A DNA stretch of 64,000 bases from Trebouxia sp. TZW2008 (Eukaryota; Chlorophyta; Trebouxiophyceae; Trebouxiales; Trebouxiaceae), in assembly GCA_002118135.1 (NCBI GenBank), contig BDIU01000131.1, positions 114,934 through 178,933 of the forward strand, written 5' to 3'. The notes beneath the pieces are model-generated. The model searched no databases, was not told the DNA's origin, and was given only the letters and a program-made list of their open reading frames with translations. Positions 1 to 57,626 of this stretch are shown in pieces. Position numbers and translations under genes: made by a program. How positions within the stretch are numbered: the stretch's first letter is position 1; each line of letters starts with the position of its first letter.

Positions 1-3000
1 TGACTGATCTGCTGGGATTCATCAGCACCGCTGACCGCCACTGGCTGCCTGACAATTGCGGCATCAGCTTTACGGACTTCTTCTTCTTCTTCTTCTTCAT
101 GTGACTTTGCTTCAGTACCAGACAGGTTTGGGGGGGCACCAACAACCGCCTCCAGGGCATTGGCAGGAACTCCCCCTGGTGCATCTCTGGCAACTGCCCC
201 TAGGGCATGTCTGGGAGGTGCCTCAGCGTGGACCTGCCTCAGCTGCTGCCAACATGAGGGGCTGTTGGGTGCAGGCCTTCTCTTGCCCTTTGGCTTTTTC
301 TTCATTTCAGCTTCCTGCAGGATAAATGTGAGAGATGAGCGTAGCATCCTGCACAGCAAGCATTTGGTGCTTCAGCTGCCGGACTGGTGCAGTACAACTT
401 GATAACTTTGGTTTCCATTGGGTCATTGGCAATACTTTTTCTTTATACTGCTCACTAGAAGTTCAATCTTTTGCCAGATCCACAAGAGCTTCTGCTTGCA
501 CTGGCAAGCCACTTCAGGTGTTTGCTGTCTGAACATTTTTAACAGCAAACACAACATTTCATTTGGTACATGATAGGCGATGCCCATTTGCTGCAACTGC
601 CACTCCAGCTACGGAGTCATTGATTTGATTGCGGCTAGGGAAGGAAGAGCAGGAACAGACTCACATGCTCAGCAGCCAGCTGGTGGGCCAAGTCAGCAGC
701 AGCCTGGCAGTTGGGGTGGTCCTGGGGGAAGAGGGGGTGGGCTCCCTGCTGGCACACCCAACCCCACTCCCTCTGCCCCACTGCCTTCCCACCCCTGCAA
801 GGCAGAAGAAGAAGTGTGGATCAAGAAGAGGCAGGTTGCAACAAGCCTGTGATATCTGGGAATTATTCTGATCAAAAAGTGGGTCAAAATGTGCTTCTTG
901 TGTAAAGAGCGTAAACAGTAAATATGAGGAGCAGACAAAAGTACAAAATTGCTGCTTGCGTTTGCTGGGGAACAGAAAGACCTTGTTCAGGCACAAAAAA
1001 CAAATATGTTATTGATAGCATCCCCATACCTACGATATCTACATTCCTACATATCAGGGCCTGCCAGAATGGAGCAACTTAATGAGCTGGGATGACAAGG
1101 GCTGAGCCAAAAAGCTGAGGGCGCTTCCCAGAACTGTCCTTGCTAGAGAGCATGCCTAAACAGGCACCTTGACGCAGCCATAGAACCCAATATGGTATAC
1201 GGTGATCCCATGACTGTATAGCATGGCTTGCCAGAAAGATTTGAGATGACAAGGCTGAGATGATAAGGGAACAGTCGTAGGGCTGGGGGCGCTTCCCAGC
1301 AAGCCCTGCCAAACAAATAAAATTGCACAGAGACCCTGAGACAGCCGTACAAAACCTAAGAGATTAGCAACAGTCCCGTACCTGTATATCAAGGCTTGCC
1401 AAAAGGGATTGACCCAATGAGCTGGAATGACAAGAGACCAGCCACAGGCCTGAGGGCGCTTTCTGGAAATGCCCTTGCGGATGAGCATGACTGGGCATGA
1501 GTTTGAGTAAGCGCCCTGCATAGCATGCCCAGCATGCTTGTGTTGCCCAACTTGAGACCATTGACAAAAGGTAAGACAACATGTATCTGATACAAGGGCT
1601 TACATCTCACAGGCTGCCTCAAAGTCGCATATGAACGCCAAAGTGTCTGTATATTGATACGTGTAATCCTGTTCAAGATACACAAGGTACAGCCCGTGAT
1701 GCATAAGTGATGCTTTGACACAGACGCACTTTTGCCTGGTGAAGACTTGACCATTGCACTGTATATGTTCCACGGGAAATGGTGCTCAATCAAGTGCATA
1801 CAATGACTCATATTGCAATGGCTCAGTCATGTATAACTTGTGTTCTATATGACTCATCAAGTGAGGTCAATGAAAGTGCATGATGTCACCTGGAGCCTGC
1901 TTGGGATTTTGATGTGTGTGTCTGTCTTTGCGTCACTGCTGGCCATGCCGCTGTCCTCTTCTTCTCCTGTGCCTTGCCATTCAGGCTCCAAGCCATTGCG
2001 GCCTTTGTCTTCTTCATCAGATGCAAGGTGCATCTCGGCTAGCCTTGCTCGCTGTCTCAGAGCGCTAAGTTGAGACTCAGGCAAGGGCGGGAGAATTCTA
2101 CGCTCATGCATAGCCTGCATATCGTACCATATATCACAATCATACTTTATTTCACCTTATCTCTATGGCTAGGGTGTTGAGCAGTTTAAAATTGTCTCAC
2201 CAACTGCAGTCACTTTCACACTGACTACATGGCATGTTTTGTAATGGAAACCTTATGATGGTCTGCTATGCTTAGACCACTTTGCTTCACAAGTGAAATA
2301 ACCAAGTACAAAGCTGCCGTCATAATTCTGTTGACAAAGGGCTAAACTGGCACATACTCACAATACCTGAAGTCATGCAGAGCCTGGGCTACATTGATAT
2401 TGCTGAGTGTGAACTACCATTATTACTATTGCCTTACCTGCCATTCAGAAGTGGGCTGCCCAGTTGAAACCTGAGATGGAGCATCCAGGTTTTGATGATG
2501 CTCAGGCTGGGCTGACTTGGGTTCTGCCAGGGTTTGTGCGCCCTGCCACAGGGCCTGAGCTGACCCTAGCAGGGCAGGGCAGGGCTGCACGGTTCGCAGG
2601 GCTTTCACAGCTGCCCCCCTAACTTCTGTCAAAACACAGCACAAGTGAGCAGCATTGCTAAAGAGAAACCAAGGATCTGCAGTGCATGACAGCTTTGACA
2701 TCTCACACCCCGGGCACAAAGAATTCATGCCCTCAGACCCCAGGGAGTCTTGTGCTCAATATGCTATCACGTTCCAGCAATATGTCACCCAAGCGCGAAG
2801 ATACGGTTTCACAGCAGCAATAGACATCGAATTCCAGTGAAGGCACTTCAAAATTGGGGGCTCGTAACGCGTTACATAAACAACACACAGCATGCAACAA
2901 ACAAGAATAAGCAGGTTGTGGGTTCACGTCAAACACCAACATCAGATTTGCAAAACCAGACTAGTGACAATCACCTGATGACAAAGAATGCTGAGACCGT

Positions 3001-16074: not shown

Positions 16075-19000
16075 TCATGACTGCGTTTTCCGCTTTTTGA
16101 ACCTGTCCAAAGCACCCAAGACAGGTTGCTGCGGCGCAGCAGCCCCTTCTTCCTCTTCATGCAATTCCCTAGCACCGCCAAAGACTGCTGCAGGCACCGC
16201 TTTCTGTCGCAGCTCCACCTCGCCAGCAGCCCCTGTCTGTTCATCTCCCTGCCCCTGCTGAGGGCCGTTCCCTTCCTCTGCATCTTCATCCACATCGTCC
16301 AACTCCATCTCTTCTGGGTTTGCTGCCATTGCTGCTGCTTGAGGCTTTGCAGCAGTTGATGCAGCGTCACGTTGTCCTTGCTGCACAACTCCAGCGCTGA
16401 CAAAACCAGGCAAGGCTGCAAGAAACACAGAAGCATGTCATGAGGATGCGAAAGAGGCAGGGCGTTTTTCCTGGGTTTGCTGTTATTAAATTTTGCAGCT
16501 GTTGGGGCAGCGTCAGGTTGTCCTTGCTGCACGACTCCTGCACTGACAGAACCAGGCAAGGCTGCAAGCAACACAGAAGCATGTCACAAGCATGCGAAAG
16601 AGGCAGGGCGTATTTCCTGGGTTTGCTGTCATTAAATTTTGCAGCTGTGGAGGCAGCGTCAGGTTGTCCTTGCTGAACTATCTCAGCACTGACAGAACCG
16701 GGCAAGGCTGCAAGCAACACATAAGCGTGTCATGAGCATGCAGAAGAAGATCTTGTTGTGCGTCAGTTTGTGCTTGTTCAACCACTCCAGTGCTGACAAG
16801 TTCCGGCAAGGCTGCAAGCAACACAGAAGCATGTCATAAGCACGCAAAAGAGAAAGGAACTGTCTGCTGGGTCTGTTGCCATTGCTGCAGCGTCAGGTCG
16901 CCCTTGCTGCAGGACTCCAGCACTAACAAAACCAGGCAAGGCTGCAAGCAACACAGAAGAGATTCAGAAGAGCTGTCAACACAAAACAGAGGTCTAGGCT
17001 ATAGGGCATAGTACAAGAATTTGTCCTTGTAAGGACGCTCAATCTGAGGGGGTTCTCAATGTAATGACAAGGCAGTTTGGAACCAGTCACTACATTTTGA
17101 CTGCAGCAGTATCTTTGAGTACAAGCATTTTTGTACAGGGAAAATTTGCTTGGTGAGCAACACAGTCATTCCAAAAAATACTGTGATAGCAACAAAGGCT
17201 AGCATGTTGTTGGAGTGATGTCTCAAGGCCAAACATCGTTGCTGATCTCGTTGCTGTGCAGACCGTTCACAGCTCCACTGAGCCAGACACTTCACTGAGG
17301 GCTTGAGAGCACTGTCCAACATCAGAGTTTGCAATTGCTGTTATGTTGACTTTGCACTGAAGCATTTGGAAGCTTTTAGTGTTTCAAAATGCACACCTGC
17401 TTGAGGCTCAGGTGCCAGGTCAGCTTCCAGGGCTGCCATATCATCACTGCGCTTCCTCTTCACACCTTCCCCGCCAGCGCCTGCCCCAGCTTCCACAGTA
17501 CCTGCGTGATCAGGCAATGATACTGACAACTTCCTGAAGTGACTGATCACAGCACAGCCTTCATGGTGCCTGCATGGTGATTTGCCGCTACTGTGATGTT
17601 CTGTTGCAACATGAGCTGTCTCAGACAACACGCCATACAAAGCTTAGTAATGTCTTCACAAAGAGCCTGGACCAACTGATTGCAGCGCAACACATGACAG
17701 CACAGTACAGCAAAGCGCAATTGAGTACGGCATCTGTATTGCCTAAGCAAGGCACGGCACGGCACGGCACAGCACAGCACAGCACAAGCAGCGCAGCACA
17801 TTTGAATATAGCAGCAAATTACAGCATAAACAATGCACTTGCACCCAGATGTTCTGAGACAACAGCAAGAAGAAGACCTGTGGTGACTGGGGCAGTTGCT
17901 GCATCAATGATGGTTGTATTGAAGTGTGTCTGACTGAATGAGGCCGCAACGCTGCGCTTGATGCGCAGCATCTCTCTGAAGGTGTCTTCATTTCCATGCG
18001 CCACCTGAAGGAAACCGTGTTTGCATTTGTGCCTTTATACAACAGAGATTTTTGGCGGCGCATGACATCTTGAAAGGTGTGCTCAATGCGCCATGCAGAA
18101 GCAACTTTGCTTCATGTGATGCAATGATCTCGACAGCAAGGAGCTGCTTTTCAAGCACATCTGTGCCTTTCTAATCATCACCGACAATGCTGTTGATCGC
18201 TGTTGACCAGACAAGACAGACATCACAAACAAGTTGTGCTTTTGTGGACACAAGCTGCACCCCAATGCACAAGGGCATCCCAGGCATTTCTGAAACATGC
18301 TTGTGAGCAAAACAGTGTGTGGAAGCATGCTCCAGCATTCTACGACAGTCTTGAAAGTCTTGCAACAAAAGCAATATGCTCATGAGCAGATAAGTGAGTT
18401 GACTTCACTTTGAGAGGCATCTCAAGCATGAGCTTTCAGTATTACCTCAACAGCAGCTGTTCTCAGCCACCAAAAGCATGTAAAGTATGTGGCTCAGCGC
18501 TGACAGACAGTGGAAGCATGCCTTTGACGTTGCCAACAACATACCCATTGCGTGTTGGTGGCAACGTCGGAGGCGTGCTCACTGTACCTGTCGGTGCATA
18601 TCCACAAGGCAACAATGCCAACGGTTACACATTGGATTGTACCAATTTGTTGCATGCTAGCAGAGAAACAATCGGCATTAGACATTGAATGTTCAATGTG
18701 CTGCATAACAAACAGGGAAGCAAGCAACATCAGCCATTGCAACATTGAATGTGCTGCATATCACACAGGAAGGAAAACAGCACCAGACAATGGGAATAAG
18801 TCGATGTGCTGCATGACAGACAGGAAGATAGCCAGCATGAAAACAGAGAAGGTACGAATAATGTACCTCAAAGGAGTTCCAGTCTGCCCAGAACGCAGGA
18901 TCTCTTCTAGGGTCAGCCATTGCACTGGCATGTATGTAAATTGCTCTAGCCCTATCTATTTCACCCAAACCCCGCTCCAATTTGGCATACCTGCACAAGT

Positions 19001-24331: not shown

Positions 24332-24404
<73 letters not shown>

Positions 24405-24573: not shown

Positions 24574-24622
<49 letters not shown>

Positions 24623-24630
24623 GGCAGGCA

Positions 24631-24681
<51 letters not shown>

Positions 24682-37109: not shown

Positions 37110-40100
37110 ATGCCGATCGGTGCCGCGAACCTCTTCGCGGCGACGGACCCAAAGCTTGTGATGTACAACTACGCGACATCATTTTTTGGCGGCGTCGCTC
37201 CATTGGTGAGTGCGTGACTTCATTCCAAGGCGTTGCGTTGGGTGTGAAAAGCCGTGTGTGCACATCAGTGCAGCGATGCCGCTGCAGCAGTGCAGTGACG
37301 TGCACTTGCGTAGCCTGTCTTGGCGGCACCAAATTTAATGCTCAACTGCACTGCTTTGCCGAAATCAATCATTTTTCTTGCTCACGGATGGTCTCCTGTG
37401 TCCGCCGTCAACTTCGCCTCGCTGCATGCATCAGTGCTTTGCGCGTCAGCGGCAGCTGTTTTGCAGGAGCAATGGATCGGATACGTGCTGGTGTGCTGCT
37501 TCGGGGTCGTCTTCACTATCGTCACCCAAGGTAAGCTCACGCCGTTGCAAGTCGTCTCTGCAGTTGCAAGCTTCCAAAGCCCAGTGCTGCTGGTATTCTT
37601 CAGAAACAATGCAACTGCACATCTTGTGCAGCCATGATTACGGTGGACCGCAAGTTTGGATCTGGTTCTGGTAACTCTGAAGACTTTCAAACATGTGGCC
37701 GCACCATCAAGACAGGGCTGATCGCTGTGGGTGAGTTGCCTGCCAAACAATGCACATGCTTGGCACCGCATTGAATGACTTCCTGTCGTCCCAAGCACTC
37801 AGAGCTGCCTTTTGTTGTGGCACCAGCAGCAGCTCAAGTCTCACCAGCACAATACAGGCTGAGCTGAATGCTCAAAGCTCAGCAGAGTGCAAGTTGATGC
37901 ACCCTCATTTTGTCATGAAATTGTCATCCAGTCAGTAACATCCCCACAGTCAGATGTCACACAATCAGTACTCTCAAGTACATCCAGCCTCTTGATGCAT
38001 ACTCATCCTGCTGACGATGCCTGTTGCTCTTCTACAGACACTCTCAGTCACCGCATTTGAGCTGCAACATTGTTGCATGTATCTTTTCCCTGCTGAAATG
38101 CTGAAAATGACTGTTCACCTTTTGCAGACATTGTAAGTCACTGGACTTGGGCTGCAAGGTTGTTGCAAAGCTTGGACCGAGCATACCAGAAGGGCGTTGC
38201 CAAATCAGCTGACAGCTGATGAGCTAACAATGGCTGTTTGTTGTCTGCAGATATTGTGAGTCATTGGACTTGGGCTGCAACATTGTTGCAAAGCTCTAAC
38301 CAAGCATATCAATACGGCGTGTCAGGCCCCTTTTGGTATGCTGGAGGCGCAACAATCCAAATCATTCTGTTTGGAATCTTAGCAGTCCAAATCAAGATGA
38401 AGGCCCCGTCAGCGCATACTGTCCTAGAGATTGTGTACGCCCGTTGGGGAACCCTGGCCCACCTGGTGTTCTTCTTCTTCTGCTTCCTGACTAATATCAT
38501 CGTCAGCGCAATGCTAATTCTGGGAGGAGCTGCTGTCATGACTGCGCTGACTGGCATGAACACTTACGCGGTACGTTCGAGTAATGACTGTAATTACGCA
38601 GTAAGTTATGTATGTTGCAAGTTCATTTGTGTCTTTAGTACAAGCTTTGGTCCTACAATATCTTGCTGGCTTCATTACGCCTCTTGCATGTAACCTTTTG
38701 GGCATCTTCATCATTGAATGCATCTGGCAGCATCGCCTGAAATTGTGGGGTGGCATTCACAAATATCTGCACCAAATGTTCACTTGTACAGGACAGACAG
38801 TCTATGCAAAGCGCTAAATGCACCGCAGCTGAATGTGCAGTCACTCACAATCATGACTAGATCATGACATACCACATGAAGTGCCTCACCGACTGTGTGT
38901 GCTGGATATCTTCATGCAGCATCAGCAGGCCTCATCTGAGTATAATTATCCACACAACATTACAGATTACTACATCTTGAGCACATCTGAGCCTATTCAC
39001 GCAATGCACTTAAATTTCCTGTCATCACACGTGTGGGCAATGTGTCATGCACAGCTCTGATTCTGTTGACCATGACTTCAACGCTCATCTTCACAGTGCT
39101 GCTTACATTGCTGTGCCAAATGCCCTTGCATACACTTACACAAATTTTGGCCCCCTTGTGCAGGCAGCGTTCTTGATTCCTGTTTCAGTGTGCGTCTACA
39201 CCACAACTGGAGGACTGAAGGCTACCTTCCTGTCATCATACATTCACACTGTCATCATCTATGTGGCCCTTTGCATCTTCGCCTTCACAGTATATGCCAC
39301 TGGCAGTGATTTGGGAAGCCCTAGCAAGGTAGCCCAATTTCCAGAAACCCTGTGCAATTTGGCATGTCATTGCTCATTTACACCATCGTAACTATGCAGT
39401 CCTCTGCATCGTTGCCGTCACAACACATGCGTTTTCAGCTGTATCTGCGATTGATCACAGTTTGCTGCAGACCTTGACTTTGCACAGCAGAGTTGTTTGA
39501 AAACCAAAGTTGTGAACAAATTGGAGAGCAGTCAGTCCACAAGCATTCAATGGCCACAGCAGAGTCGCTTGATGCCTGAGAATGACTGCAAGCATATCGG
39601 TCCAAGCTGCATACTTCTGCAGCAGGAATCAGTTCTCAAGCTGCAAAATGCTTTCTTGAATTAAAAAAAACGCCTGATGACCAAGTCTGACGACTGCAGG
39701 TGTACCAGCATCTGGTGATTAAGGCTGCATCAAAACCTGTTGGGGGAAACCAAGACGGATCATACCTCACCTTCTTTAGCAGCAATGGACTGGTGTTTGG
39801 CATCATCAACATCATTGGTACCTTCTTCTGCCTTCCCCTAATTGTTGACGGTCTGACCAGATACTGTCTGTGCTTTCTTGCATAATGCAATGTCGTCTTT
39901 GGCGTCATCAACACCATTGGTGCGTCCTGACTTGCTGACGCCTCTATCAAGTGCCACATGCAACTTCTTCCCACAGTTATTTGGCTTCCAGAGCAGTCAT
40001 CCATTCACTACTGCAATTGCTTACAACTCATCAAGTGCCACATGCAACGACTTTTTAACAGTTGCTTGGTGTTCAGTGTCCAATTCACTTGCAACTTTTT

Positions 40101-43100
40101 TGGAGGAATCTGGTCACAACCTGATTTGCTGATGACTTGATCAATGCTTCATGCACCGTCTTTCCCACAGTTATTTCACAGTTATTTGGTGTCCAGTGTC
40201 CAATTCACTTGCTTTTTTTTGGAGGAATATGTTCACAACCTTATCTGCTGATGATCTGATTAATGCTTCATGCAACAATGTTTGCACATGTTTTCCTGTC
40301 CTGTGCAATCAGTCTGATGGTGCAGCAGCAACCTAGCTTGCTGTAGCAAATGCCATTTTGTGTGTACAGTTAGTGATGTATGTTACATTGTATACGTCAA
40401 AAGTTACACACCCATTTTGTACATACAGCTATTCACGCCACAAAGATTCACAGCTTGCTCACAGACTTCTTAAATCCCTTGGCTGCTATCTTGCACACAA
40501 GTACTTGGCATGCCTCACATACGGCTGTTGCTGCAGGCAACTTTGGAACTGTCTTCTGTGACCAGGCTTACTGGGTGAGTTTCTGTGCAGTGACTTCCCT
40601 TTCTAACAACTGCATTGCTTGCAAGAAAAGTGTCCTGATATCAAACTTTCCTTCACTCAAAGGTACTTCTGCAGTCACAATGCAGTGATTGGTTTCCAAT
40701 TGCACTGTCCTTGCATCAAGAATGTCCTTATATTTGGGGTCACGGGCTGCCTCTTTAGACGGAGGCTCCCTTTATGACGCCTAACGGCGTAGTCTTGTCT
40801 TCTTTCTTTTCTTTTGGGGGTCCTTGTAAGGCAAAAGTAATGTAGCTTACAGCCAGTAGCTTGCAACTGTTGCACGGTCAGCAGCTGTTTCACTGCACAC
40901 CCTTTGCAAAATGATCTTGGACTCACCGGCCACTGCATGAGCCTTGAGCCATGTTGTCCTGTGACAGCATGGACACTGATCAAAGTGCCTTGCTGGCAAC
41001 ATTCCACTTCAATGTCCAACAGGATTTGTTTGTTTGTTCCCGTTGTGTTGCCACAGCATGAGCACTGCCTGAATGAAGCTTGTTGGCACAGACTGCAGCA
41101 ATGATGGGTGCAGCTTGAGGCTCTGCCTAATGTGTTTTGGTTTCTTGCAGCAATCAGCCATTGCAGCGCGGCCCTCAGCTACCTACAAGGGTTACCTCCT
41201 GGGGGGTCTGCTCTGGTAACTCATGTATATGTGGTTCCTTTGCACCTTGCATTGTTGTGTGTGAAGTCAGGGCCTTGATTTGTCAGCCGCCTTAACATGT
41301 AGTTCTATATGTTGTTTGCACTGCTGTTGGCAGACCTGCGCTATTGTGTCATTTACATTTTGCACCTTGCATCTTTGCACGTTGCAGACATTGGCGAGTC
41401 ATGTGCCGTAAGCCCTTCACGCTCATGAACTTTGTCACAGCATCTGTGCGTATTTGTGTTCAGACTTTGCATCCCATGCAGATTAACTGCTTGCTTGTCT
41501 CTCAGCTGTAGTTTTGGACCTTTCAGGTATAGAATCCAACATCATTGCGTGTCATGATTACATTAAGGTGAATTTCCTTTAAGAACATGTGGACGTGACT
41601 GCAGGTTCTGCATTCCATTCACCCTAGCCACTTGCTTGGGACTCTCAGCATTAGCCTTGGACCTACCCATTACCGTAACAGAGGCCAATGAAGGATTGGT
41701 GCCTCCTGCTGCCGCATTCTTCCTCTTGGGCAAGGGTGGCGGAATCTTGATGACTGTCATGCTTCTCATGTAAGTCCCTCATGACTCATGTACTGTGTTG
41801 CTGATCGTACTCCTGCTGCTGCGTTCTTCCTCTTGGGCAAGGGTGGAGGAATGTTGATGACCGTCATGCTCCTGATGTAAGCGCTCTATGGTTTATCCAC
41901 TTACTCTACAAGTCATGCAGTCATAGTCAAGCCATGCACACGTGCACATACTTACTATTGTGCATGTGGCACTCAGTATATGATATGAGTGACATCCACT
42001 GCAGCAATCAGTATGAATGTCAACAAATTGCACACAGTCAGAGACCAAAGCTGACTTTCGGGCCCTTGGCAGAGCACTGTTTGATTGATTGGTTGACACC
42101 TGTGCGTAAGGTAGGTAACAGTTATGCCTCAGCATGTTCCAGAAGGCCATATGGAGCACTCAACAACAAGCACACAAAAGCACCCTCTCGAACACATCTG
42201 GCTTGTCTGGGAGCTTGTCATAACAAATGGTAATCAAAACAAAAATAACAATAATATTGATAATAGTAATAATAATAATGGTAATAAAAATAATAATAGT
42301 TACCATCACCATCATGCTCTCAACCAAATGCAATCACATGCAGAAACAATTCCATGACCTGTAGGGCTGTGACACCATCATCAGAATCAGCAGAGCAAAT
42401 TGCTGTGTTGTCACTGTTCACCTGTAACAGCTTTGTCATTGACAAAAAGGGCCTAGCACCATGTGGGCTGATGTCGTATATTCTGATTGTTGTCATGATC
42501 ATCAGCAACACATCGTCCAACCGCCATGTGATTCACTGTGTTGTTTCTTACAGGGCTGTTACATCATCAGGGTCTGCTGAGCTGATTGCCGTGTCATCAC
42601 TCTTCACCTATGACGGCTACTGGCATTACGTGAACCCTAGGGCCAGCGGCAAGCAGCTGCTGATTGTGTCCAAGATCATGATCCTCATCTACACTGTGCT
42701 CATGGGTAACCCTCAGCTGTAGGGTTGTGTTACTAGGGCTGATTGTGTCCAAGATCATGATCCTCATCTTATGGTTAAGCCTCAGCTGTAGGGTTTTGTT
42801 ACCAGGGCTGATTGTGTCCAAGATCATGATTCTTATCTACCCTGTGCTTATGGGTAAGCCTCAGCTGTAGGGTCATGGGGATTAGGGCTAATCTCCTTGA
42901 CGTTAATGCTGGCATGATTGTCTGACATCTCAATTGTTGTAGGTTTTTGACAGTAGAGAACACGTTGGTGTAATTATTTAGGCATGCTTTCTGCACAGGG
43001 CAGTGGTTGTTGCATCCTGCACAGGCTCTCATCAGCAAGAACTGGTCTTGGGAGCAAACAAAAGCACGCATTGTATGTCATGTGGTGCATTTTGTCTGTG

Positions 43101-46100
43101 CAGCCTCTGCACTTTGATGGCTGCGTATGCCCCAGATCATGCCTGTGCAAGTGTCTATCAGTAGTCTGACTGTCCATTCAAGTGTGTGCAAGGCTTCCCA
43201 AAATGCACGACAGCTTCAGATAGAGCTCCACTGAATTTTGCGTTTTCCTGTGCAGGTGTGTTTGCTGTCATTCTACAACAGCTGAACTGCTCCTTGGGCT
43301 ACGTCTATGTAAGTTGCCAGACGCTTCGTGCCCTATGTCTGTAACTTCTATCTGTTCGCCAAAGCAGCAAAGCTGCTCTGTGTCTGTCAAACTGCAGTGC
43401 TGCTTGTATGCTGATGCAGTTTGCATACATGCAACCCTACAGTAGCTGTGCTTACATGCAGTGCCATTTGTGAAGAACCCGCCTGTTGTGCTTACTGTGC
43501 CTGCTGATGTTGTTATATTGATAAACTTACATCCCACACATCTTGTCATCAAAATTGCAACATCACTGCATGTTACGGTCCTTGTTGTCTGTGCGTGAAG
43601 AGTGCAGAGCACTCCACACTCTTATCTTCCAAGGTAAAGGAGTTTATGCGATGGCTGGTTCTGCAGGAAATTATGGGTGTCCTGATAGGGTCAGCTGTCA
43701 TCCCTATTGCCATGTGTCTAATGTGGAAGAAGACCAACAAGTGGGGTGCCATGGGAGGCGCTGTGTTGGGGCAGTGGTGTGGTCTCATCTCCTGGCTAGT
43801 GTTTGCCAAGGTATGCTTTGCAGGCTATGCCTGCTGTGCCTGCTATCTTTGAAGTTTGAAGGTGGAAGAAGAATAACAAATTGGAAGCTGTCTTTGGGCA
43901 ATGGTGTGGCTTGATTGCCTGGCTAGTGTCTGCCAAAATATGCTCTGCATGCTATGCCTGCTTTGCCTGCTGTGTGTGATCTCCCATTCAGTCTTTAGCA
44001 ATGTATGCTGTGTCTACTGCGCCTGCTGTGCGCGCTGTCTTTTGCCAGTGATGTGGTTTGGTCTTATTAATGGTGCTTGCCAGGGTGCGCTTGGCCTGCT
44101 GTGCATGCTGTGTGTGCTGCGCCTGCTGTCTTTTCCCCAATCGTGTAGTTTGATTTCCTGGCTGGTGCTTTCCTGACTGGTGACTTCCTGGCTGGTATTT
44201 GCCATGGTACTGCTCTTTTGCCTGCCAGGCTTGCTGTGTTCCGCCAGCGTTGTGGCTCATGCTATGTATGAGCCCTTCTGAGCTGTTGCAGGTTTAGTAC
44301 AATACAAGATTTCAGGATTACACCATGTTGACCAAGAACGTGACCTCTTGCAGTCCGATGCTTGTCTACAGATCACAGATGATATGATGAGATCACCTAT
44401 GATACAACCGTTCAGAACTACACCACGTTGACCAGAAATGTGGTTGAACATAACATTGACCTTGTGTTCATTGTCATGTGCTTCTCTGCAGATCAAGTAT
44501 AATGAGATCACCTACGACACCACTTTTGAGAATTACACCATGTTGACCGGAAACGTGGTTTCCCTGGGCATGGGAGGAATCATCTGCCTTGTGGTCTCTC
44601 TCATCTTCCCTGAAGACTATGACTTCATCAGCATGAAGCAAATCAAGATGCTAGATGATGATGTTGGCGGCAGCAAGGGCTTCACCCAAGTAAGCAAACA
44701 CACCATGTCAGACATGAGTGGACATGTGTCATGCGTGTGAGCAAGTGTCTCAAATGCTATAATTTTCTTCTGTCTAGTGGTCTCTCTCATCTTCCCTGAA
44801 GACTAAGACTTCATCAGCATGAAGCAAATTAAGAAGCTAGACGATGACGTTGACGGAAGTAAGGGCTTCACCCAAGTAAGCACACGCATCTGGTTGGACA
44901 TGGTTTGACTCACTTGCCTTGTGGTAGCACTCACCTGTATGCCTTTAGTGGCTTTGATAGATGAAGATGCTAGACAATGATGTTGGAGGCAGCAGGGGCT
45001 TTACTCAAATGAGCACACACAACCTGTTCACAGAGCAGACTTTGTACTGTTTGCAAGCAGATGTTCATATCGCAGCGTGCTGATCTTTTTGTGACACAAT
45101 GTTTGTGGCAACAATGCAACACACGTGCAATCAGATGTGAAAATCTGGCGTCAACGCTGTGCTGCTTAAGTCAACAGGACAGCAGCGTCATGCGGCACAG
45201 CATGCTTTTAGATGCGCGTCTGTGACAGCAAAAATGATTCTGCTTGGTCTGATGTTTGGGCGAAGAATCAGTGAAGACCACAGCGCATTTTGAGTGCTGA
45301 CCAGGAGCGTCAGGGCTCTTTGACCAGATTAACGGCTGTGCATATGCAAATTGGCAGCCCTACAGAGGGTCAGGCTGAATCCTGAAACTCTAATGCAAGT
45401 GCTGCTTTTGCAGGATGGGGAAGACAGCATGTCAGCCATGAAGGCAGCCCTTAGGTTTGTGCTGATTTGGGGTGGAATCTTGGCCCTCATTCTAATTCCC
45501 GTTTGGCCCCTGCTTGCTTTGGCTGCTGGAACCTTCAGTGAAGGTAACAACCCTAAGCATACCCTGCCAGTTTGCATGCCATATCTTGAGCCTTCGTCTT
45601 CGTCTTCACCTCTTTGAGCTTGCTACAGAAGTTTGCAGTGAGCGTGAAGAACCTCAGCAATTTCTGCTGAACATTGTGCCACAAAATGCAGTTGTGTTTG
45701 CTGACCCTTGCTCCAGCTGTTGAAATCTATTTTGGGATTTGGTCTTGCATTCTTCTGCAGACGTTGCCAGCCAACTGCGCATTTATTCATTCTGTTGCTG
45801 TTGCTTGCATTTACATGATAGCTGGCCTGCAATTGCAGGGTGCTCCACCTTTTGAGCTTTCTTGGAGAATTAATTGCAGTTGTCCTTGCACCTCCTCTTT
45901 ACATCTGAAATCACCTGACACATTTAGATCACGGAGCATGAGTCATGCTTAGTCATGTACACTTTGCGCTGTGTCTGCAGGCTTTTCACCTTCTGGGTTG
46001 TGCTGTCACTCATTTGCTGACTGATTGCAAATCTAGTTGCCACTCTTCTTCCAACTCGGGAGTCGCATGTCAAATGTCAATCATTGCTGTCACATGCAGC

Positions 46101-46421
46101 ATACGTAATGCCAGTCAGCCACATGACAGCTGGTCTGTATCTGCAGGGTATTTCACTTTCTGGGTTGTGCTATCACTCATCTGGGGACTCATTGCGACTG
46201 TCATTGCCACTCTTCTTCCAATCTGGGAGTCAAGACAAGCGCTTATCAACATGTTCAAGCACTTGGCTGGCAGGGGTGGGGACATTGCACCCACCAAGGG
46301 GTACCCCCCGGCAGACCCTATGGTCATGGGCGATGAGAAGCCAGTCCAGACCCCCCCTGTGGCTGCTGGCGATGACTCAGCCCATAGGCAATCTGAATTT
46401 GGCCACAAGTATCATGTGTAG
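37110..46421 (+). CDS. DUR3: DUR3-type urea/proton (sodium) symporter
   Basis: High-affinity urea transporter of the sodium:solute symporter family, at the plasma membrane. Fifteen exons join in phase to 693 residues, the normal DUR3 length: 37110-37205, 37467-37530, 37632-37730, 38251-38570, 39164-39328, 39700-39817, 40537-40574, 41151-41215, 41605-41769, 42554-42705, 43256-43308, 43667-43810, 44492-44689, 45414-45543 and 46147-46421. Diagnostic stretches: [99 protein letters not shown] and [16 protein letters not shown], with many hydrophobic membrane segments. The ATG at 37110 precedes the conserved GGVAPL segment; an in-frame upstream extension exists but is not family-like. A TGTAA sequence follows the stop at 46425. 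Exon edges are duplicated around exons 4, 6, 9, 10, 12, 13 and 15. Confidence 0.95.
38030..38250 (+). repeat. Two decayed copies of the DUR3 exon 4 acceptor edge
   Basis: Acceptor-plus-exon-start copies at about 38038 and 38128 precede the real one at 38251. Each has ctacag or ttgcag followed by an acat/acactctcagtca-type start and a ctgcaa...ttgttgca remnant of the WAATLLQ codons. The nearer copy reads TAA at its third codon if joined in the real phase, so it could not substitute for exon 4. Confidence 0.75.
40590..40730 (+). repeat. Dispersed repeat copy C
   Basis: Shares caactgcattg, gcagtcacaatgcagtgattgg and catcaagaatgtcc with 30370-30500 and, inverted, with 17050-17175. It lies in DUR3 intron 7. 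Confidence 0.55.
42235..42305. repeat. AAT-type microsatellite
   Basis: Imperfect aat/aac trinucleotide run in DUR3 intron 9. Confidence 0.85.
42361..42880 (+). repeat. DUR3 exon 10 edge copies on both sides
   Basis: One acceptor-edge copy lies upstream (about 42361-42430, agggctgt then acaccatcatcagaatc). Two donor-edge copies lie downstream (about 42737-42790 and 42806-42870, gctgattgtgtccaagatcatgat then tgggtaagcc). The intact exon is 42554-42705. Confidence 0.8.
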
Positions 46422-50053: not shown

Positions 50054-53000
50054 ATGTGCTTGCAGAGGTCTGTGTCTTGCGTCGAAGCTGCTCAAACTCC
50101 CAAGCCCCATATCCGTGTGCCGGTCAGATGCAGCGCGTTGCCAAAGCAGCGTCGAGTCAGCAGCAAGCGACACCCTGCAAGGACGCTCCAGAGTGGTAGA
50201 GTGCATGCAGCCAGTGCAACATCAGAGGCCACCAAAGGTGAGCTGCTGTGTGAAGTGCATGTCAATCAAGCTGCCGCAGACATGCAAAGCAATTTCCATC
50301 ATTGCACAGAGCATGCCCCACCTTTTATGTCCTGACCCAGACAAGGAGACTTGTTGCCAAAGCTTTCCTCCAAAAACTGGTTAGTTTTGCTCTATGTTGG
50401 TGCAGCATCACAGATCAGCTGGTGGTTCTCGTTTGCGTCATTGCATGCAGGCAAAGAACACACATGCATGGAAGCATGCCAAATTGCGCTGAAGTCAGAT
50501 AAAACATGCAGTCTCACATCTGCTGCAGAAACTCAGCCTAGCAACATGAAAAGTAGCAGCAGCTCTCAAGCACGGTGTCCTTTTGGTGGGAGCAGCACTG
50601 CCAGCGTACCTCAGCAAGACATCCCTGCTGACTCAGCCTCAGCAGATGGCGGGAGCTTGGCAGGCCTTTCAGTATCCTTCCCGCCAAGGGACTACCTGGC
50701 CTTCAAAGATGAAGCCTACAGGATAGACCTAAGGCTGGATCGAATCTCTTTGGATGACATCTTTGAGATTGATGAAGTTTATGAAGCAGATATGGCAAGG
50801 AAGGCACATATTCTTGCAACGCGACCCACAGAAATGCTGCTGCCAGGTGTTCCTGGGGTAAGTTTCTCTCACGATTTGCCCTTGATCAAATCCCTAAAAA
50901 AGGTCCTACGTTTGACAAAAACTCAAAATTTGCTGGTTCAGATGTGGCCTGCTGTCACTCATTACAAGAGTGTTGTAGTGCTTTCATCTGTGCTGATTGC
51001 CTAGATTGCCTCTTATCCATTCTGCCACATCTAAGGGTTTGTGCTTTTGCAAGCCCAAAATTGAGGTCTACTCCCTCTTACATATCTTGCATGGGTCTCA
51101 TTGCTTTTTGCTGCCCGTTTTATATTATGCTTATGGTGATGGTCAAACAGTTTTGTTTGCTGCCAATGTTATGCTGTATGATAGTTCCTGATGCTCTACT
51201 GGGTTCTTGCATACAGATAGACCTGCATAGTTAAAGAATGAGCTTGGTGTTGGGACTGTTTTGGTGGACAGGTCATACTTTCAGGAGTTTTTGGGTGTGC
51301 AGAGTGAACCAGCAAAGCGTGAAAACCTCAAATTGGTTGTAACAGTTTGCATCAGCAGCTTCTCAGACATCATCATTTTTGTTTTTGGAGTTGCAAGCTT
51401 TATTTTGATGTCTGTCAATGTTGCCCTGTGCGCAGAGTGAGAAAGCTAAGCGTGAAGTCCTAAACCTGGTTGTGAAGGTCTTGACAGGCAGCTTCCCAGA
51501 CAGCTTTCAGCTCAGAAGGTCCCTACTGGGAGGCACTCCACTGCTTCAGTATGCACCAGGCAGGGTCATAGAGCCTCACTAAGTAATGGCAAATAATGGA
51601 ACTTGATGGTGACGATGATGATGCTGATGGTGTTTTGCCATTTTGCAGAGTGAGCCAGCAATGCGTGAAGTCCTGAACCTGGCTGTGAAGGTCTTGACAG
51701 GCAGCTTCTCAGACATCATCATCTCCTTTCCTGCAACTTTCCTGGTTTGGAAGTTGCAACTTTTGTTTTTCATGTGTGTTGATGTTGCCCTGTCTGCAGA
51801 GTGAGACAGCAAAGCGTCAAGTCCTGTACCTGGTTGTGAAGGTCTTGACAAGCAGCGCCTCTGGAAAATCATATGCCATCCGATGACGATTGACTGTAAG
51901 CTGCAGGAGATGCCACATGCATACAGCATGCGCATGGCTGACTGCTATGGTCAATTTTGGCTTGCAAAGCTGACAGATCAATCTTTACCTGTTTGCAGAG
52001 TGAGCTAGCAAAGCGTGAAGTCCTAAACCTGGTTGTCAAGGTCTTGACAGGCAGCTTCCCAGACAGGTTCCAGCTCAAGGGGTCTCTGCTGACTAACGCA
52101 TCAAGTGGCGAAGAGTTCGACATCAGTGATGAAGCCAGAAACCCTATGGACGTAGTAGCACGCCTTCTTCAGGTATGTCAAACATATCTTCTCATGTCAG
52201 GATGCCGCAAGCTTCCCAAATGCTGCAATGCGTTCCACAACCTGTGCTCATCTTGGCAGAATGCACTGAAAACATGAACTGCAGCAATGCTGCTTGGCCA
52301 CCTTGGCATGCAGCCTTGACTGAGCAATGTATCAAGTCGTGAAGACTTTGATGTTGCTGATGCAGCCAGAAATCCCATGGACATAGTGGTACGCCTGCTT
52401 CAGGTTTGACAAATGTCTCGTCATGTGTGACGCATTATCATGCTGGGAGTATCGAGCTGTGAAGACTTTGACATTGCTGATGCAGCCAGAAACCTCATGG
52501 ACACAGTGGCACGCCTGCTTCACGGTTGACAAATGTCTTGTCATGTGTAACGCATTATCATGCTGGCAGGGTACATCAGTACTCTCAAATGCTGCAATGA
52601 TCCTTGGTGAAATTGTCATAGTGCGTTGACAGATTTGTGGGAAGGCGCATTGTTGTCGCACTAAGCATAAGACTGTACAGTTGCAACAAATGCAGAACAT
52701 GACAGCTTGGCAGACATTCCTTCACACTGCGTTCATAACGTAGTATCAACGCCATGCGTGTCTGATGCAGCAGGTGAAATGGTACAAATGGAGCTTAAGC
52801 TGAACAGGTCATACTCATATCTATGATGCATCCTGTTGCAGAAATCAGAAAGTTGGTGCTTCATGTTTGCCGCTACATCACAGACAAGTTTGCTGATGCT
52901 GTCTGCTTTGTTGCAGGAAGATGTGATGCAAAAGGTTGATGGCAAGTTAAGCCTTCCTTGCAGCATTGTTGTCAGCTTTTTGGAGTGCAGCAAAACACAT

Positions 53001-56000
53001 GAATCTGGTCCTCCTCTTCTGCCTTGCTGTTATACAGAAAATGCTGCTAGGATTGTCGTGATTGTTGCAGGAAGATGTGGCAGTGATGCAAAAGATTGAG
53101 GGCAAATTGGTCTTTTCCTGCGGGGCTGTGGTCAGTCCCTGAGGTTGGAGCGGTTCCGCAAAGTTGGGACTGGAGTCAAGCGGAATCCAAAAAACCAGTG
53201 CCACAATTCGATGATGGTCCAGCGCTCAAATTTGTCTTACTTGTTGCAGGAAGACGTAGCAGTGATGCAGAAGATTGATGGCAAATTGGTGTTTTCTTGC
53301 GGGGCTGTTGTAAGTCCCTTGGGTTGGAGCGGTTCCGCAAAGTTGGGACTAGATTTAAGTGGAATCCACAAACCAGTACCACAATTTAATGATGGTCCGG
53401 CGCTTACATTTGTGACCAAGATCTTTGAGAGGGGCCTTTCTGAGAAGGTGCCCTTGACAAGGGCCAATTGGTTCATCATGCACACTCCAGAACTTTCACT
53501 GGTAAGTTGTCGATCTCTATTGATGATTGCTATTGGTTTTGATGTACGTAAGCTAGCACTGTCTACCTTTCTGAAAGCATGCATGGAGAAAGCAAGGCCT
53601 GTTTGGTTCATCATGTTCTGGAGCTGTCTCTAGCAAGTCACTGATTGTATGTCAGGGGCAATGGCGGCAGGCAAACCTGCTTCATTGTACATTCACCAAA
53701 GGTCTCATTCGCCACTTGCTATCATGATTGTCCTTTGCCAAAAAACTTGGCGACCACGATTGCCTACCCCATGCATTATAGGGTAGGCAATCATGGCTAT
53801 CGCTGTCCGTTGATTTTCTTGATACGAGAATGCAAAGATGCAAGTTGCGGCTCTGCGTAACAGAGCTTATTTTCTACAGCATTATGCAAACGTCTGGCGC
53901 CTCTGTATAATACAGCTTTTCAGAGCTGTCAGTGGCAAGTTGACTTACTGTACATGCACCTGATTGACAACTGTTTTGTGTGTGTTTGTTTGCAGTTTGC
54001 TGATCCTCAATACATTCCAGAATCTCCAGATTTGGGCCCTGTCACCATCCAGAATGCTGGCGACCGCTTATTCCTGCGCTGTGAACGCCAGGTCAGTCTT
54101 TTTCCTTTGCTGTTTGTGTTCTCTTCATGGTTGCTGTCTCTGAATTCATTCTGGAATCTCCAGATTTGGGCGCTGTTATCATCCAGAACGCTGGCGATCG
54201 CTTGTTTTTGCGCTGTGAACGCCATGTCAGTCTTCTTCTTGCTACTGCGCTCTCATCTTTGTTGCCACATTCCATATCGGTCAGCGACTCAAAACTGCTT
54301 GTTTCTAAAGTGCCAAATGTGATGTGTCACTTCACAATGTTGTGCAACATGGCACTTGGGTACAAATCCACAAAGTCACCCAATGTTTCCCAGATTCACC
54401 TTTTGCCTTGCACAGCAAATGGGCTGTAAGCAACTACACACAGCAACAATAGCACACAGCAAACAAGAGCGACATTGCTTGTTTTGATCTGTTGTGTGCT
54501 ATTGTTGCTGTCTATGGTTGCTCACAGGACGTCCTGTGCATGCCTGCTTGTGAAGGGTGAAGGGTAACTGAGTCCTAGATTCATGTCCTATGTTGCACCT
54601 ACCTAAGCGTGGATTGATGGGTGTTTCCCACGTTCACTTCTTGCCGTGCAACGCATGCAATGGGCTGTAAGAAACCACAGACAGCAACAATAGCACATAG
54701 CAAATCAGAATGACTTGTTTGTATCTGTATGTGCTGTTGCTGTTGCCTGTGGTTGCTCACGTCACTTCCTGTGCACGCCAACTTGTGAAAGAGGTGGGGA
54801 ACTAGAAGGAGCAGACAGCTGTTGTGTTGCGTTTGTGTTGGCAGATCAGTCAGCTGGACACTCGCCAGCCCGCTTACAGTTCAAAATGGACACTTTCAGT
54901 CAGTATCAGATCTGCAATGTGACTACACTAGACAGCTGTCTTGTCCTTCTGTCCTGCGTGCGTTGCCTTGACCTATGGTTGACTAAGGAAAAGCTGCTGT
55001 GCAAAGCGCCTTATTACAGATTGTCTTTTGATGTGTTTGCTGCAATTGCTGGTGGTAAGAAGGTTGCCAGAGTGTCGTGGCGTCATATTGACTTTCAGGA
55101 CTTACCTGAGGCCCTTCGAAGGCATTGAGCATTCCTCATACAATGTGACTACCATTTCTTTGCAGGTAGCTACAAGTTTGCCAGAGGGTGATGGCGTCAT
55201 GTTCAACCCCAGGACTTACCTGCGGCCCTTGAGAACTCCAAGAACAGAAATGCTGAACATGACTTTGTGGTGCAACTTCACGTAGCAACAAGGATGCCAG
55301 AGTACCGTGGCATGGTGTTCACTCTAGGACATGCCTCAGGCCCTTGAAGCCATGAAACATCCTTCAGAACCTGTAAGTACCATTTGATTGCAGGTAGCTG
55401 CAAGGTTGCCAGAGTGTGGTAGCGTCATGTTCACCTTTGAGACTTACCTCAGGATCTGGAAAAACTGTCAGAACAGAACTGCTGCACATGCTTTTCTGGT
55501 GCAACTGCAGGTAGCAACAACGTTGTCAGGATGTTGCGGGGTCATGTTCACCTCCAGGACATGCCTGCGGCCCTTTAGTACTCTCAGAAAAGAGCTGCTG
55601 AACATGATTTTGTGGTGCAACTTCAGGTAGCAACAACATTGCCAGGATGTGGCGGGTTCATGGTCACCTTCAGGAATTCCCTGTGGCTCTTGAAACGATC
55701 ACATGCCCCTGCACCAAGTGAATGGGATGCGTGCAAATGCAGGTGGGAACAGCAGGTTCCAGACTGCAACAACTATTTGCAGCTTTTGTCTGCGGTTCTC
55801 TCTGCAAGCAAAGACTCAATGGCATGGTTTTCACTGAGTCTCAGCGCTTTCTTGTGCAATCCTAGGTCAACGAGACTGCTAGAGCGTGGCAGGGTCATGA
55901 TCACTTTCAGGACTTACCTGCGGCCCGTAGAATCTCTGAGAATAGAGCTGAATGTGATTTCGTGCAATTGTAGGTGGCAACAAGGTTGCCAGAGTGTGGT

Positions 56001-57626
56001 GGCGTGATGTTCACCTTTAGGACTTACCTGCGGCCCTTGAAGGTTCTGGAGGAGCGCACTGAAGTCATGCAGCGCCTGCTAGCAGCATTCCTAGCCTTGC
56101 CTGATGAAGTGGTATGTTACCCCTGTGTATCACCTATTATGATGTCCTTTGACACTCTTCCCCCCTCCACCCCTTGCCCCCTTGGATGACCCCTTTGAAA
56201 CCCCATGCGGCCCTTGAAGGTTCTGGAAGAACGCACTGAAGTCATGCAGCGCCTGCTAGCGGCATTCCTAGCCTTGCCTGGTGAAATGGTATGTTACCCC
56301 TCATTTCACCTCCTGTGACGTCCTTTGACACCCCCCCCCCCCCCCGCCCCCCCCCNNTGTGACGTCCTTTGACACCCCCCCCCCTCCCTCCACCCCTTGC
56401 CCCCTTTTCCCCTTTGATGACCCCTTTCAAACCCCCAGATGCCCTGCAAAGCAACAGCTTGAAGGTACTCGAAGAGCGCACTCAAGTCGTGCAGCGCCTG
56501 CTGGCAGCATTCCTAGCCTTGCCTGGTGATGTGGCACGTTAGCCCCCCTCCTCCAACCCCCCCCCTAAGACCCCCCTTCAACCCCCTTGTGTCCCCCTAA
56601 ATCAATGAATGCTCTGCACAGCAAGTCTTGAGAATGCTGCAAGAGTTACAAGGACTCATGCAACGCCTGCAACGCCTTGCCTGATGAAGTGCTGAGTCAT
56701 CCCTTGTTGCCACCCCCTCCTGATGGTTTTTTGACCCCCCTGTGACCCCAACCGTCCTGCACAGCAACATTTCGATATGCTGAAGGAGCGTTCCAAGATC
56801 TTGCAGCGCCTGCTTACGGCATTCCTAGCCTTGCCTGATGCAATGTTACATCCGCCCCCTTGCCTCCCAAGGGCTCCTCCATCCGCCTTCCAATCACTGC
56901 ATCCAATCTCTGCACAAATGTTCTTGAAAGCACTGAAACCACGCACCCAGGTCAAGCAGTGCTTACTACCAGCATTCTTGGGCTTGCCTGATACAGTGTG
57001 TTGTTGGCAACAGCCCCTGATTTACCCCTTTCACTTCCAGCCCCTGTTCCTTTTGAGGCCCCTTTGCTGCCTTGCTGTCCTTTCGTCATGTGTGTCAACT
57101 GGTGCCTGTGCTATGCAGATTTCATACAGGCACGCCTGGCATGACATGAGCACCCGGCAAGCCAAAATGTGCTGTGTCTCAATGATGAAGTTAAAGTCAG
57201 CTTGTGTACGGCTTGACACTGTGTAGTTTTTTCAGTTCTCCCCTGGTGTACAGCAACTGTCAACTGTGCTGTGTGGATAGCATCAGCAGTCAGTATGCAA
57301 GCCAGCGTTCACATGGCTTGACACTGCTTGTCTCGTTTTGCTTCTGTGTGTCAACTACAGACTGTGCTGTGCAGGTTGCGTACAGGCATGCCTGACATGA
57401 CTTGAGCACCCGCCAGGTGGCAATGTCTAACACTCAATATTCAGTACTGAACCCAAACTTGACGCGGCTCAAGGTTGTTGGGTTCTGTGCCCTCCTGGGG
57501 AAATGTGTAGCAATTGTTGCCTGTGCTATGCAGATTGCATACAGGCATGCCTGGCATGACATGAGCACCCGTCAGGTGGCAATCGCCTATCTTGAGAAGG
57601 TAGCAAAGAAACAGCAAGCCAGCTGA
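50054..57626 (+). CDS. Haem-dependent oxidative N-demethylase alpha-like (DUF3445)
   Basis: Belongs to the HODM_asu-like/DUF3445 family, whose founding member oxidatively demethylates dimethylamine using haem; the substrate here is unknown. Seven exons join in phase: 50054-50237, 50451-50857, 51999-52172, 53250-53501, 53996-54091, 55974-56111 and 57534-57626 (447 residues). Family blocks: FPPRDYLAFKDEAYRIDLRL, SLDDIFEIDEVYEADMARK, EDVAVMQKIDGKLVFSCGAV, LSGIHKPVPQFNDGPA, NWFIMHTPELSLFADPQY, NAGDRLFLRCERQ joined to a RLPECGGVMFTFRTYLRPL segment, and a C-terminal YRHAWHDMSTRQVAIAYLEK. The first exon encodes a basic Ser/Ala/Arg-rich leader that could target an organelle. Exons are short, and most of the 7.6 kb is intron filled with decayed edge copies of exons 3 to 7. 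Confidence 0.85.
51290..52520 (+). repeat. Edge copies of HODM exon 3 on both sides
   Basis: Acceptor-edge copies start near 51302, 51437, 51650 and 51800, before the real exon at 51999, each with gag(a/t)gag...aagcgtgaagtcct and cttgacaggcagctt. Donor-edge copies lie near 52337-52405 and 52455-52525, with gaagactttga.(a/g)ttgctgatgcagccagaaa. Confidence 0.8.
52915..53240 (+). repeat. Two acceptor-edge copies of HODM exon 4
   Basis: Copies near 52916 and 53070 precede the real exon at 53250. The nearer copy preserves EDVAVMQKIEGKLVFSCGAV and then carries a TGA before the GWSGSAKLGL equivalent, so it cannot replace exon 4. Confidence 0.85.
53761..53800. repeat. Short perfect hairpin
   Basis: attgcctaccc and gggtaggcaat form a perfect inverted repeat around an 11-12 base loop, in HODM intron 4. 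Confidence 0.8.
54360..54790. repeat. Tandemly duplicated inverted-repeat unit
   Basis: Two units of about 220 bases (near 54410-54540 and 54655-54780) each contain an inverted repeat with arms related to acagcaacaatagcacacagca / tgttgtgtgctattgttgctgt. In the first unit the arms are nearly perfect; in the second they have diverged. Lies in HODM intron 5. Confidence 0.75.
55050..55960 (+). repeat. Acceptor-edge array of HODM exon 6
   Basis: At least seven decayed copies of the exon 6 beginning, near 55054, 55165, 55281, 55391, 55508, 55625 and 55862, mostly 110-117 bases apart, precede the intact exon at 55974. Each keeps caggtagc-aacaa, ttgccagag, gtcatgttcacc and aggacttacctg variants. Confidence 0.85.
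56200..57005 (+). repeat. Donor-edge array of HODM exon 6
   Basis: About five decayed copies of the exon 6 end follow it (near 56208-56290, 56455-56535, 56625-56690, 56775-56850 and 56925-57000), with gagcgcactgaagtcatgca, cgcctgct, gcattcctagccttgcctg variants and C-rich spacers. Confidence 0.85.
56328..56395. other. Poly-C tract with two unknown bases
   Basis: A long C homopolymer interrupted by nn at about 56356-56357. The phrase tgtgacgtcctttgacacccc occurs on both sides, so this is either a collapsed or misjoined tandem repeat or a sequencing dropout. Confidence 0.8.
57100..57440 (+). repeat. Two acceptor-edge copies of HODM exon 7
   Basis: Near 57118 and 57373, preceding the true last exon at 57534. 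Both keep a YRHAWHDMSTRQ-like stretch; the second has a TGA inside it. Neither leads to the real C-terminus. Confidence 0.85.

Follow-up and report, generated by a model that had tools for sequence, protein, structure and literature searches.

Intron lengthening is usually ascribed to transposons or drift. Here we analyzed a 64,000-nucleotide stretch of the green lichen alga Trebouxia sp. TZW2008 (the window; contig BDIU01000131.1, positions 114,934 to 178,933 of the forward strand, assembly GCA_002118135.1), in which the exon-intron junctions of several long genes are accompanied by local tandem copies of themselves, together with nine chaperonin-family genes elsewhere in the genome. The assembly holds 68.5 Mb in 527 contigs and the GC content of the window is ~48%; published Trebouxia genomes are 63-74 Mb in size with ~50% GC (PMC11523091, PMC12712428).

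The closest described case is the potato RdRp gene, in which a tandem duplication of an intron tail and exon head, across their boundary, made a new intron; the copy inherited the putative branch site, polypyrimidine tract, acceptor and putative exonic enhancers (PMC4974935, which also mentions an 83-bp tandem duplication within an intron). The Trebouxia cases share the tandem duplication across an intron-exon boundary but differ in outcome: in potato the copy is used, a cryptic exonic donor was recruited and a new intron arose with exonic sequence added (PMC4974935), whereas in the two Trebouxia genes matched to transcript-sized contigs the extra copy is wholly spliced out and an existing intron grows. 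Potato also offers one case, whereas Trebouxia has dozens, donor junctions included. Intron gain of the Rogers/Hellsten type, by internal gene duplication, likewise involves short intragenic tandem duplications that alter exon-intron structure, but it starts within an exon, from an AGGT-bearing segment, and makes a new intron (PMC3443670, citing Gao and Lynch 2009 and Hellsten 2011), whereas the Trebouxia introns lengthen. Patch-mediated double-strand-break repair in rice leaves tandem or partly tandem insertions of 10-1000 bp (PMC7407515, citing Vaughn and Bennetzen 2014) and, by this likeness, may be a candidate source of the Trebouxia units, although the rice passage draws no link to splice junctions. 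Introners are a further instance of lineage-specific intron change in green algae, but they are mobile and create new introns genome-wide (PMC9860276), whereas the Trebouxia copies are local and derive from the gene's own junction.

Among the titles and abstract openings covered, with subscription papers mostly outside, no junction-straddling duplication was described as a route of intron growth, PMC4974935 being nearest. The word 'tandem' is absent from the main text of two Trebouxia genome papers (PMC11523091, PMC12712428) and of an Asterochloris paper. The pattern described below is real, repeated and largely explained; tandem duplication affects introns in known ways, and what differs here is that existing introns are lengthened, across many exons.

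Junction copies and their polarity

Exons were modelled with a purpose-written spliced protein-to-DNA aligner, which accepts GT or GC donors, AG acceptors and all phases and uses homologue profiles. Three genes were modelled in the window (positions are those of the window):

16078..28383, minus strand: SYF1 (XAB2-like splicing factor), 16 exons separated by introns of 90-1162 bp; the spliced alignment drew on 11 homologues including protein entry P0001
37628..46394, plus strand: DUR3 urea symporter, 13 exons modelled, 5' end incomplete; spliced alignment
50060..57623, plus strand: HODM_asu-like (PF11927) gene, 7 exons; spliced alignment, reference P0241

Twelve chaperonin loci were also fetched and nine modelled, guided by their own stretches matched by hidden Markov models, while C352, C215 and C45 were dropped (guides <250 aa). 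Doubtful exons in this set are a 10-nt exon in C87 and those with weak or non-canonical edges in C237, C144, C348 and C308; long gaps in C308, C144 and C349 probably hide missed exons.

Copies of each junction were then scored on both of its sides. A score counted if it lay above all 100 Markov shuffles with z ≥ 5, and junctions without AG/GT or with exons <30 nt were excluded from this per-junction test. Over all genes, copies lay on the expected side, upstream for acceptors (22/73) and downstream for donors (19/69), in 41/142 cases and on the wrong side in 1/132 (sign test 41 v 1, p = 2e-11). The window genes contributed 30/64 on the expected and 1/60 on the opposite side: acceptor probes scored upstream in 16/32 (12 spanning the junction by ≥8 nt) and downstream in 1/30, and donor probes downstream in 14/32 (12 spanning by ≥8 nt) and upstream in 0/30. 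For the nine chaperonin genes the values were 6/41 (5 spanning) versus 0/38 for acceptors, 5/37 (4 spanning) versus 0/34 for donors and 11/78 versus 0/72 overall. Five of the nine carry junction-spanning copies, with a doubtful exon edge in the case of C308, and the pattern thus extends beyond the window. In total, 33 of the 41 matches on the expected side extend ≥8 nt across the junction, and the remaining 8 barely cross it or sit to one side. The sole wrong-side score came from exon 5 of the HODM-like gene, where a 134-bp unit covers nearly the whole 96-bp exon.

In the exon-exact models, wherever a listed self-match crosses a real junction and its partner is wholly intronic, that partner lies upstream for acceptors and downstream for donors; the exception is HODM-like exon 5, with its near-whole-exon unit. 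In the SYF1 exon 9 array, both partners touch the exon. The copies are mostly half-exons, either acceptor-only or donor-only, and miss the opposite splice site.

An earlier note on this DNA had described such copies around the exons of nearly every long gene and had proposed an intron-expansion mode distinct from introner or transposon insertion, with the polarity that it requires. Our counts bear out the copies flanking exons, their polarity (the two sides being far from equal) and local head-to-tail duplication straddling a splice site with one contiguous exon kept. The phrase 'nearly every long gene' is borne out by SYF1, DUR3 and the HODM-like gene; the probable POP1 gene offers one clear three-copy array, besides weaker repeat pairs in its region, and its identity is suggested by two Pfam matches, both under cut-off. 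Polarity is forced by geometry, because only the copy adjoining the rest of the exon (the downstream one for an acceptor, the upstream one for a donor) can remain exon, and it serves as a check on tandem duplication without in itself arguing for special machinery.

The arrays at exon junctions in the window are as follows (S, self-comparison; J, junction probe):

25427..25844, minus strand: SYF1 exon 5 (exon 25341-25481), acceptor copies (S)
24332..24788, minus strand: SYF1 exon 6, donor-side similarity, period 227, with a GACA/AGGC microsatellite inside; the copied exon tail leaves the junction uncovered in the probe test
23866..24306, minus strand: SYF1 exon 7 (exon 23805-23982), acceptor copies upstream, period about 167, AG intact in 2/2
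23128..23877, minus strand: SYF1 exon 7, which is thus flanked on both sides, donor copies downstream, period 113 and up, GT intact in 4/5 covering it
22287..22815, minus strand: SYF1 exon 8, donor copies (S, J)
21401..22156, minus strand: SYF1 exon 9, tandem array through the exon, period 164, copies on both sides (S, J)
20286..20715, minus strand: SYF1 exon 11, acceptor copies, period 143 (S, J)
19956..20280, minus strand: SYF1 exon 11, donor-side copies, period 218 (S, J)
18914..19328, minus strand: SYF1 exon 13, acceptor copies, period 153 (S, J)
16343..16970, minus strand: SYF1 exon 16, four acceptor copies, period 146, AG intact in all
38009..38320, plus strand: DUR3 exon 2, acceptor copies (S, J)
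41703..41881, plus strand: DUR3 exon 7, donor copy, period 107 (S, J)
42659..42892, plus strand: DUR3 exon 8, donor copies (S, J)
43760..44173, plus strand: DUR3 exon 10, donor copies (S, J)
44298..44560, plus strand: DUR3 exon 11, acceptor copy (S, J)
44580..45027, plus strand: DUR3 exon 11, donor copies (S, J)
45969..46231, plus strand: DUR3 exon 13, acceptor copy (S, J)
51295..52091, plus strand: HODM-like exon 3 (exon 51999-52172), four acceptor copies, AG intact in all
52089..52569, plus strand: HODM-like exon 3, donor copies (S, J)
52880..53413, plus strand: HODM-like exon 4, acceptor copies, clean tandem, period 179 (S)
53977..54265, plus strand: HODM-like exon 5, near-whole-exon duplicate, period 134 (S, per-junction test)
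55031..56043, plus strand: HODM-like exon 6 (exon 55974-56111), eight acceptor copies, AG intact in 6
56029..57005, plus strand: HODM-like exon 6, five donor-side copies, GT intact in 1/4 covering it
57073..57583, plus strand: HODM-like exon 7, acceptor copies (S, J)
1042..1492, minus strand: probable POP1, three-copy array, offset 167, over a putative POPLD-like exon, copies downstream (S)

Bypassed decoys and splice-site choice

Next, we compared the models with transcript-sized contigs. The SYF1 product is identical to P0001 at 933/933 residues and the HODM-like product to P0241 at 418/419. This agreement is not blind, as P0001 is within the SYF1 profile and P0241 is the HODM-like reference, although the exons and usable splice sites were still required in the DNA. 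The source contigs (≤3186 bp for P0001 against a gene span of 12.3 kb, and 2489 bp for P0241 against 7.6 kb) look spliced, being far shorter than the gene spans, with every exon used once; the source code 'lgn' presumably denotes a read-archive assembly. Both products are free of inserted coding sequence, so that constitutive use of most copies, which would have refuted the earlier note, did not come true for these genes; the evidence consists of two protein entries, not reads. DUR3, whose product matches P0121 of Trebouxia sp. C0009 at 84.9% identity over 634 aa, lacks a transcript-sized counterpart in this species, and the transcript-matched set is SYF1 and the HODM-like gene.

Repeated extraction yielded 84 junction-probe copies, 68 of them within the three window genes. 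The splice dinucleotide is covered by 78, and 61 keep an intact AG or GT, so that many decoy splice sites are left, as had been predicted. Against the expectation from per-copy identity, the decoy AG is intact in 38/43 (29.2 expected) and the GT in 23/35 (22.6 expected). In copies well aligned on both sides, AG is kept in 33/36, compared to 114/146 for the other AGs of those alignments (p = 0.096), and GT in 20/28, compared to 68/116 for the other GTs (p = 0.28); decoy AG is kept more often than dinucleotides at large in introns (508/904, p = 8e-6) or in exons (p = 0.005). Copies of one array are not independent in these statistics, and an excess of intact decoy AGs is unproven. A test for selection against decoys gave no sign of it, as decoy AG and GT are kept no less often than the same dinucleotides elsewhere.

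The retention of AG in 33 of 36 well-aligned decoy acceptors would suit a reading of the copies as alternative or mutually exclusive exons, or as alternative splice sites diversifying the protein, and so would the acceptor decoy nearest to SYF1 exon 7 (23805-24194), the sole one of the 61 intact decoys that, if used, would insert an in-frame, stop-free stretch (168 nt). However, use of the other 60 would bring a frameshift or stop, most copies are half-exons rather than complete in-frame exons with both splice sites, and neither transcript-sized contig includes any copy, making this reading very unlikely.

Splice sites were scored with weight matrices built from these same models (81 acceptors and 76 donors). 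Across all modelled genes, 18/38 intact acceptor decoys and 11/23 intact donor decoys equal or exceed the real site in score. SYF1 and the HODM-like gene bypass 38 intact decoys (27 acceptors, 11 donors), of which 22 score at least as high as the used site, 15 of them higher and 7 in exact ties. By geometry, all 38 are nearer than the used site to the partner site across the intron, and a shortest-intron rule would therefore pick the decoys. Moreover, two copies are identical at birth and hence equal in site strength, and the choice between them must fall to position or to the undivided part of the exon. The tolerance model of the earlier note is thus only partly upheld: one intact exon does survive, but tolerance at birth, with identical copies, is unexplained without a positional splicing rule. 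The bypassed decoys, and their scores, favor an innermost-pair, exon-definition-like rule, which fits acceptors and donors alike, and exon definition may operate here. Introns are longer than internal exons, as exon definition asks, with medians of 603 vs 148 in the window genes and 364 vs 193 in the chaperonin models. Among green algae, intron length has served as an argument for intron definition in Volvox and Chlamydomonas (PMC4378016), though a cross-kingdom survey puts the cassette-exon fraction of Chlamydomonas at 22%, near multicellular plants (PMC2397502). Recursive splicing at AG-GT was dropped as a candidate, as only 5/17 exons with junction-spanning expected-side acceptor copies begin with GT.

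Origin and distribution of the duplications

We consider it probable that blind tandem duplications, combined with innermost-pair splicing, explain the junction copies. Under this explanation, head-to-tail duplications of about 100-230 bp would keep arising, blind to exon borders. A duplication within an exon would break the protein and be lost, while one across an acceptor or donor would lengthen the intron and leave the gene working, presumably a neutral change. The spliceosome would take the innermost acceptor and donor flanking the contiguous exon, despite identical copies farther out, by an exon-definition-like rule, perhaps with help from enhancers within the exon's undivided stretch, and the outer copies would afterwards decay as intron sequence.

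The self-comparison suggested in the earlier note found overwhelmingly direct and local repeats: 111 direct repeats <4 kb apart, 2 farther apart and 1 inverted (E ≤ 1e-3), and, with shorter words, 122 direct matches within 1.5 kb vs 7 inverted at any distance. By gene, direct and inverted matches number 66 vs 3 (SYF1), 19 vs 0 (DUR3) and 42 vs 4 (HODM-like). The window repeats are thus local head-to-tail tandem duplications. Junction units are mostly about 100-230 bp, and the identity of repeat matches in the three window genes runs from ~64% to 97%, a spread from which the process looks ongoing. Periods have a median of 131 (quartiles 82-177; 113 matches, not mutually independent). In 21 near-complete two-copy pairs, length minus period scatters round zero, as expected of blunt tandem units, these pairs having been chosen, in part circularly, for a length-period difference ≤15.

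Among 57 repeat families in the window and chaperonin genes, 37 touch an exon by ≥15 bp and 20 touch none, a correction to the earlier picture of copies at junctions. Exon-touching families make up 27/32 (84%) in the window genes and 10/25 (40%) in the chaperonin genes. Two intron-only arrays lie in SYF1:

26987..27220, minus strand: SYF1 intron 3, 58-bp tandem array with no exon part (self-comparison)
25988..26524, minus strand: SYF1 intron 4, 106/212-bp tandem array, genome copies local only

We also searched the 68.5 Mb genome with the units of one junction array and of two intron-only arrays, those of SYF1 intron 4 and HODM-like intron 5. Strong copies were only local, apart from one 41-bp match at 90%, and near-identical copies at unrelated loci were not found for these three units. 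This bears on whether the copies are introner-like or transposon-derived intron sequence, for which it could be said that reports of introners come mainly from fast-evolving lineages, green algae among them (PMC9860276), and that a dispersed element of roughly 180 bp is present in the window. The junction units, however, hold the neighboring exon's own coding sequence, adjoin it and run head to tail, and, with the caveat that one intron-only unit self-matches on the other strand, such an origin is hardly credible. The distinction from introners and transposons drawn earlier is thereby upheld, the dispersed element having 749 genome candidates by contrast.

That element lies at 30362-30545 and again at 40604-40733, in a DUR3 intron, with a similar frame near 17056. 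The 749 candidates come from a first look; 40 were scored, including the element itself, and the others are 76-88% identical. It is probably a short mobile element. The intron-only tandem unit in HODM-like intron 5 (54384-54789) matches itself on the opposite strand at 70-76%, forming an imperfect palindrome within a direct repeat.

Targeting of junctions was considered first, as 37/57 families touch an exon compared to 14-17 by random placement in present or collapsed genes. It was dropped for the window genes after a forward simulation, in which duplications are position-blind and those inside or around whole exons are rejected (decay and detection limits being ignored), gave the same exon-touching share from 150-bp starting introns. 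In the window genes, the simulated share of clusters that touch an exon is 96%, 87%, 67% and 51% for starting introns of 80, 150, 250 and 350 bp; the 150-bp start predicts 87% of 32.7 clusters, and 27/32 (84%) were seen. The corresponding values for the chaperonin genes, simulated to a mean intron of 483 bp where the models average 543, are 97%, 87%, 66% and 48%, against 40% seen. The 10/25 of the chaperonin genes is no excess over the simulation and a small one over random placement (6.3-7.1 expected).

Several results weigh against a position-blind process with innermost-pair splicing. The fit of the simulation hinges on the assumed start, with 250 and 350 bp failing for the window genes. 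For the chaperonin genes, 10/25 exon-touching families compares to 48-97% predicted, only the 350-bp start comes near, and 25 clusters were seen vs 39-48 predicted; it looks as though these genes had purged junction duplications or started from longer introns. Coverage is also uneven. Local repeats make up 45.7% of the introns of the three window genes (10356/22682 bp), 10.7% of the POP1 region (708/6600) and 1.0% of the remaining window (273/27764), and at the chaperonin loci 18.1% of introns (4708/26081) vs 3.7% of flanks (937/25084). A blind process should not spare non-intron DNA so strongly, absent selection or faster turnover. Lastly, the RNA support, being two protein entries, is compatible with minor decoy use.

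Either selection or turnover clears duplications elsewhere, or introns receive more of them. The latter would mean that duplications favor introns or transcribed DNA, with transcription-associated breaks as one possible route, and that expansion is targeted rather than blind, as the coverage contrasts in the window and at the chaperonin loci would suggest. Yet annotation of the remaining window is incomplete, and duplications may be purged there from compact genes and regulatory DNA; the flanks include other genes, and some missed exons are counted among the chaperonin 'introns'. Five random 6-kb pieces, taken without gene models, gave 0, 4, 3, 14 and 12 local pairs, a range that also tells against the bias. 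We judge it unlikely.

An assembly artefact might be suspected from the 527 contigs and from two N bases in HODM-like intron 6. The copies, however, differ from their exon continuously, by up to a third of sites, whereas errors would give near-identical copies; the chance of an artefact is negligible.

Introns with junction copies are longer, as the proposal of growth by such copies requires, with medians of 722 (n = 22) vs 422 (n = 11) in the window genes (p = 0.001) and 569 (n = 9) vs 299 (n = 39) in the chaperonin genes (p = 0.015), a comparison that is partly circular because the copies themselves add length.

A bolder proposal, which we regard as doubtful, is that Trebouxia-like algae use exon definition and that this feeds a ratchet of intron growth, with duplications biased to introns and perhaps tied to transcription. 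If so, junction duplications invisible to the message would lengthen introns, making exon definition more necessary, and the arrays would offer, as a natural experiment, competition between identical splice sites that could separate exon from intron definition in a green alga. The main value of these genes is as a ready test of splice-site pairing in such an alga, as each young copy sets two nearly equal splice sites in competition within their native gene. In addition, much of the intron sequence shows its source directly, in the form of copies of the adjoining junctions in many states of decay.

Neighboring genes and minor observations

The closest named relatives of the SYF1 and DUR3 products in a database protein comparison are Trebouxia proteins. 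The two genes lie close together in the window (16078-46394), and their homologues in Trebouxia sp. C0009 carry the near-consecutive tags ABBQ38_012874 and ABBQ38_012872; the neighborhood therefore seems conserved. Among the 120 best database matches to the HODM-like gene (50060-57623), Trebouxia supplies all three eukaryote records that name an organism, and the remaining organism-named records are bacterial. Judging from these matches, acquisition of the gene from bacteria is possible.

For the probable POP1 gene, one structure search yielded nothing useful, and genome searches with PF06978 and PF08170 gave no match here or in control genomes and are hence uninformative. Pfam gave no match for the frame at 8688-9620. 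A 397-codon open frame at 47992-49185 has leucine-rich-repeat matches (best LRR_14, under its cut-off) and is without local repeats. Between SYF1 and DUR3, in nearly repeat-free DNA, a perfect 70-bp direct repeat lies at 33268-33591, its copies 254 bp apart.

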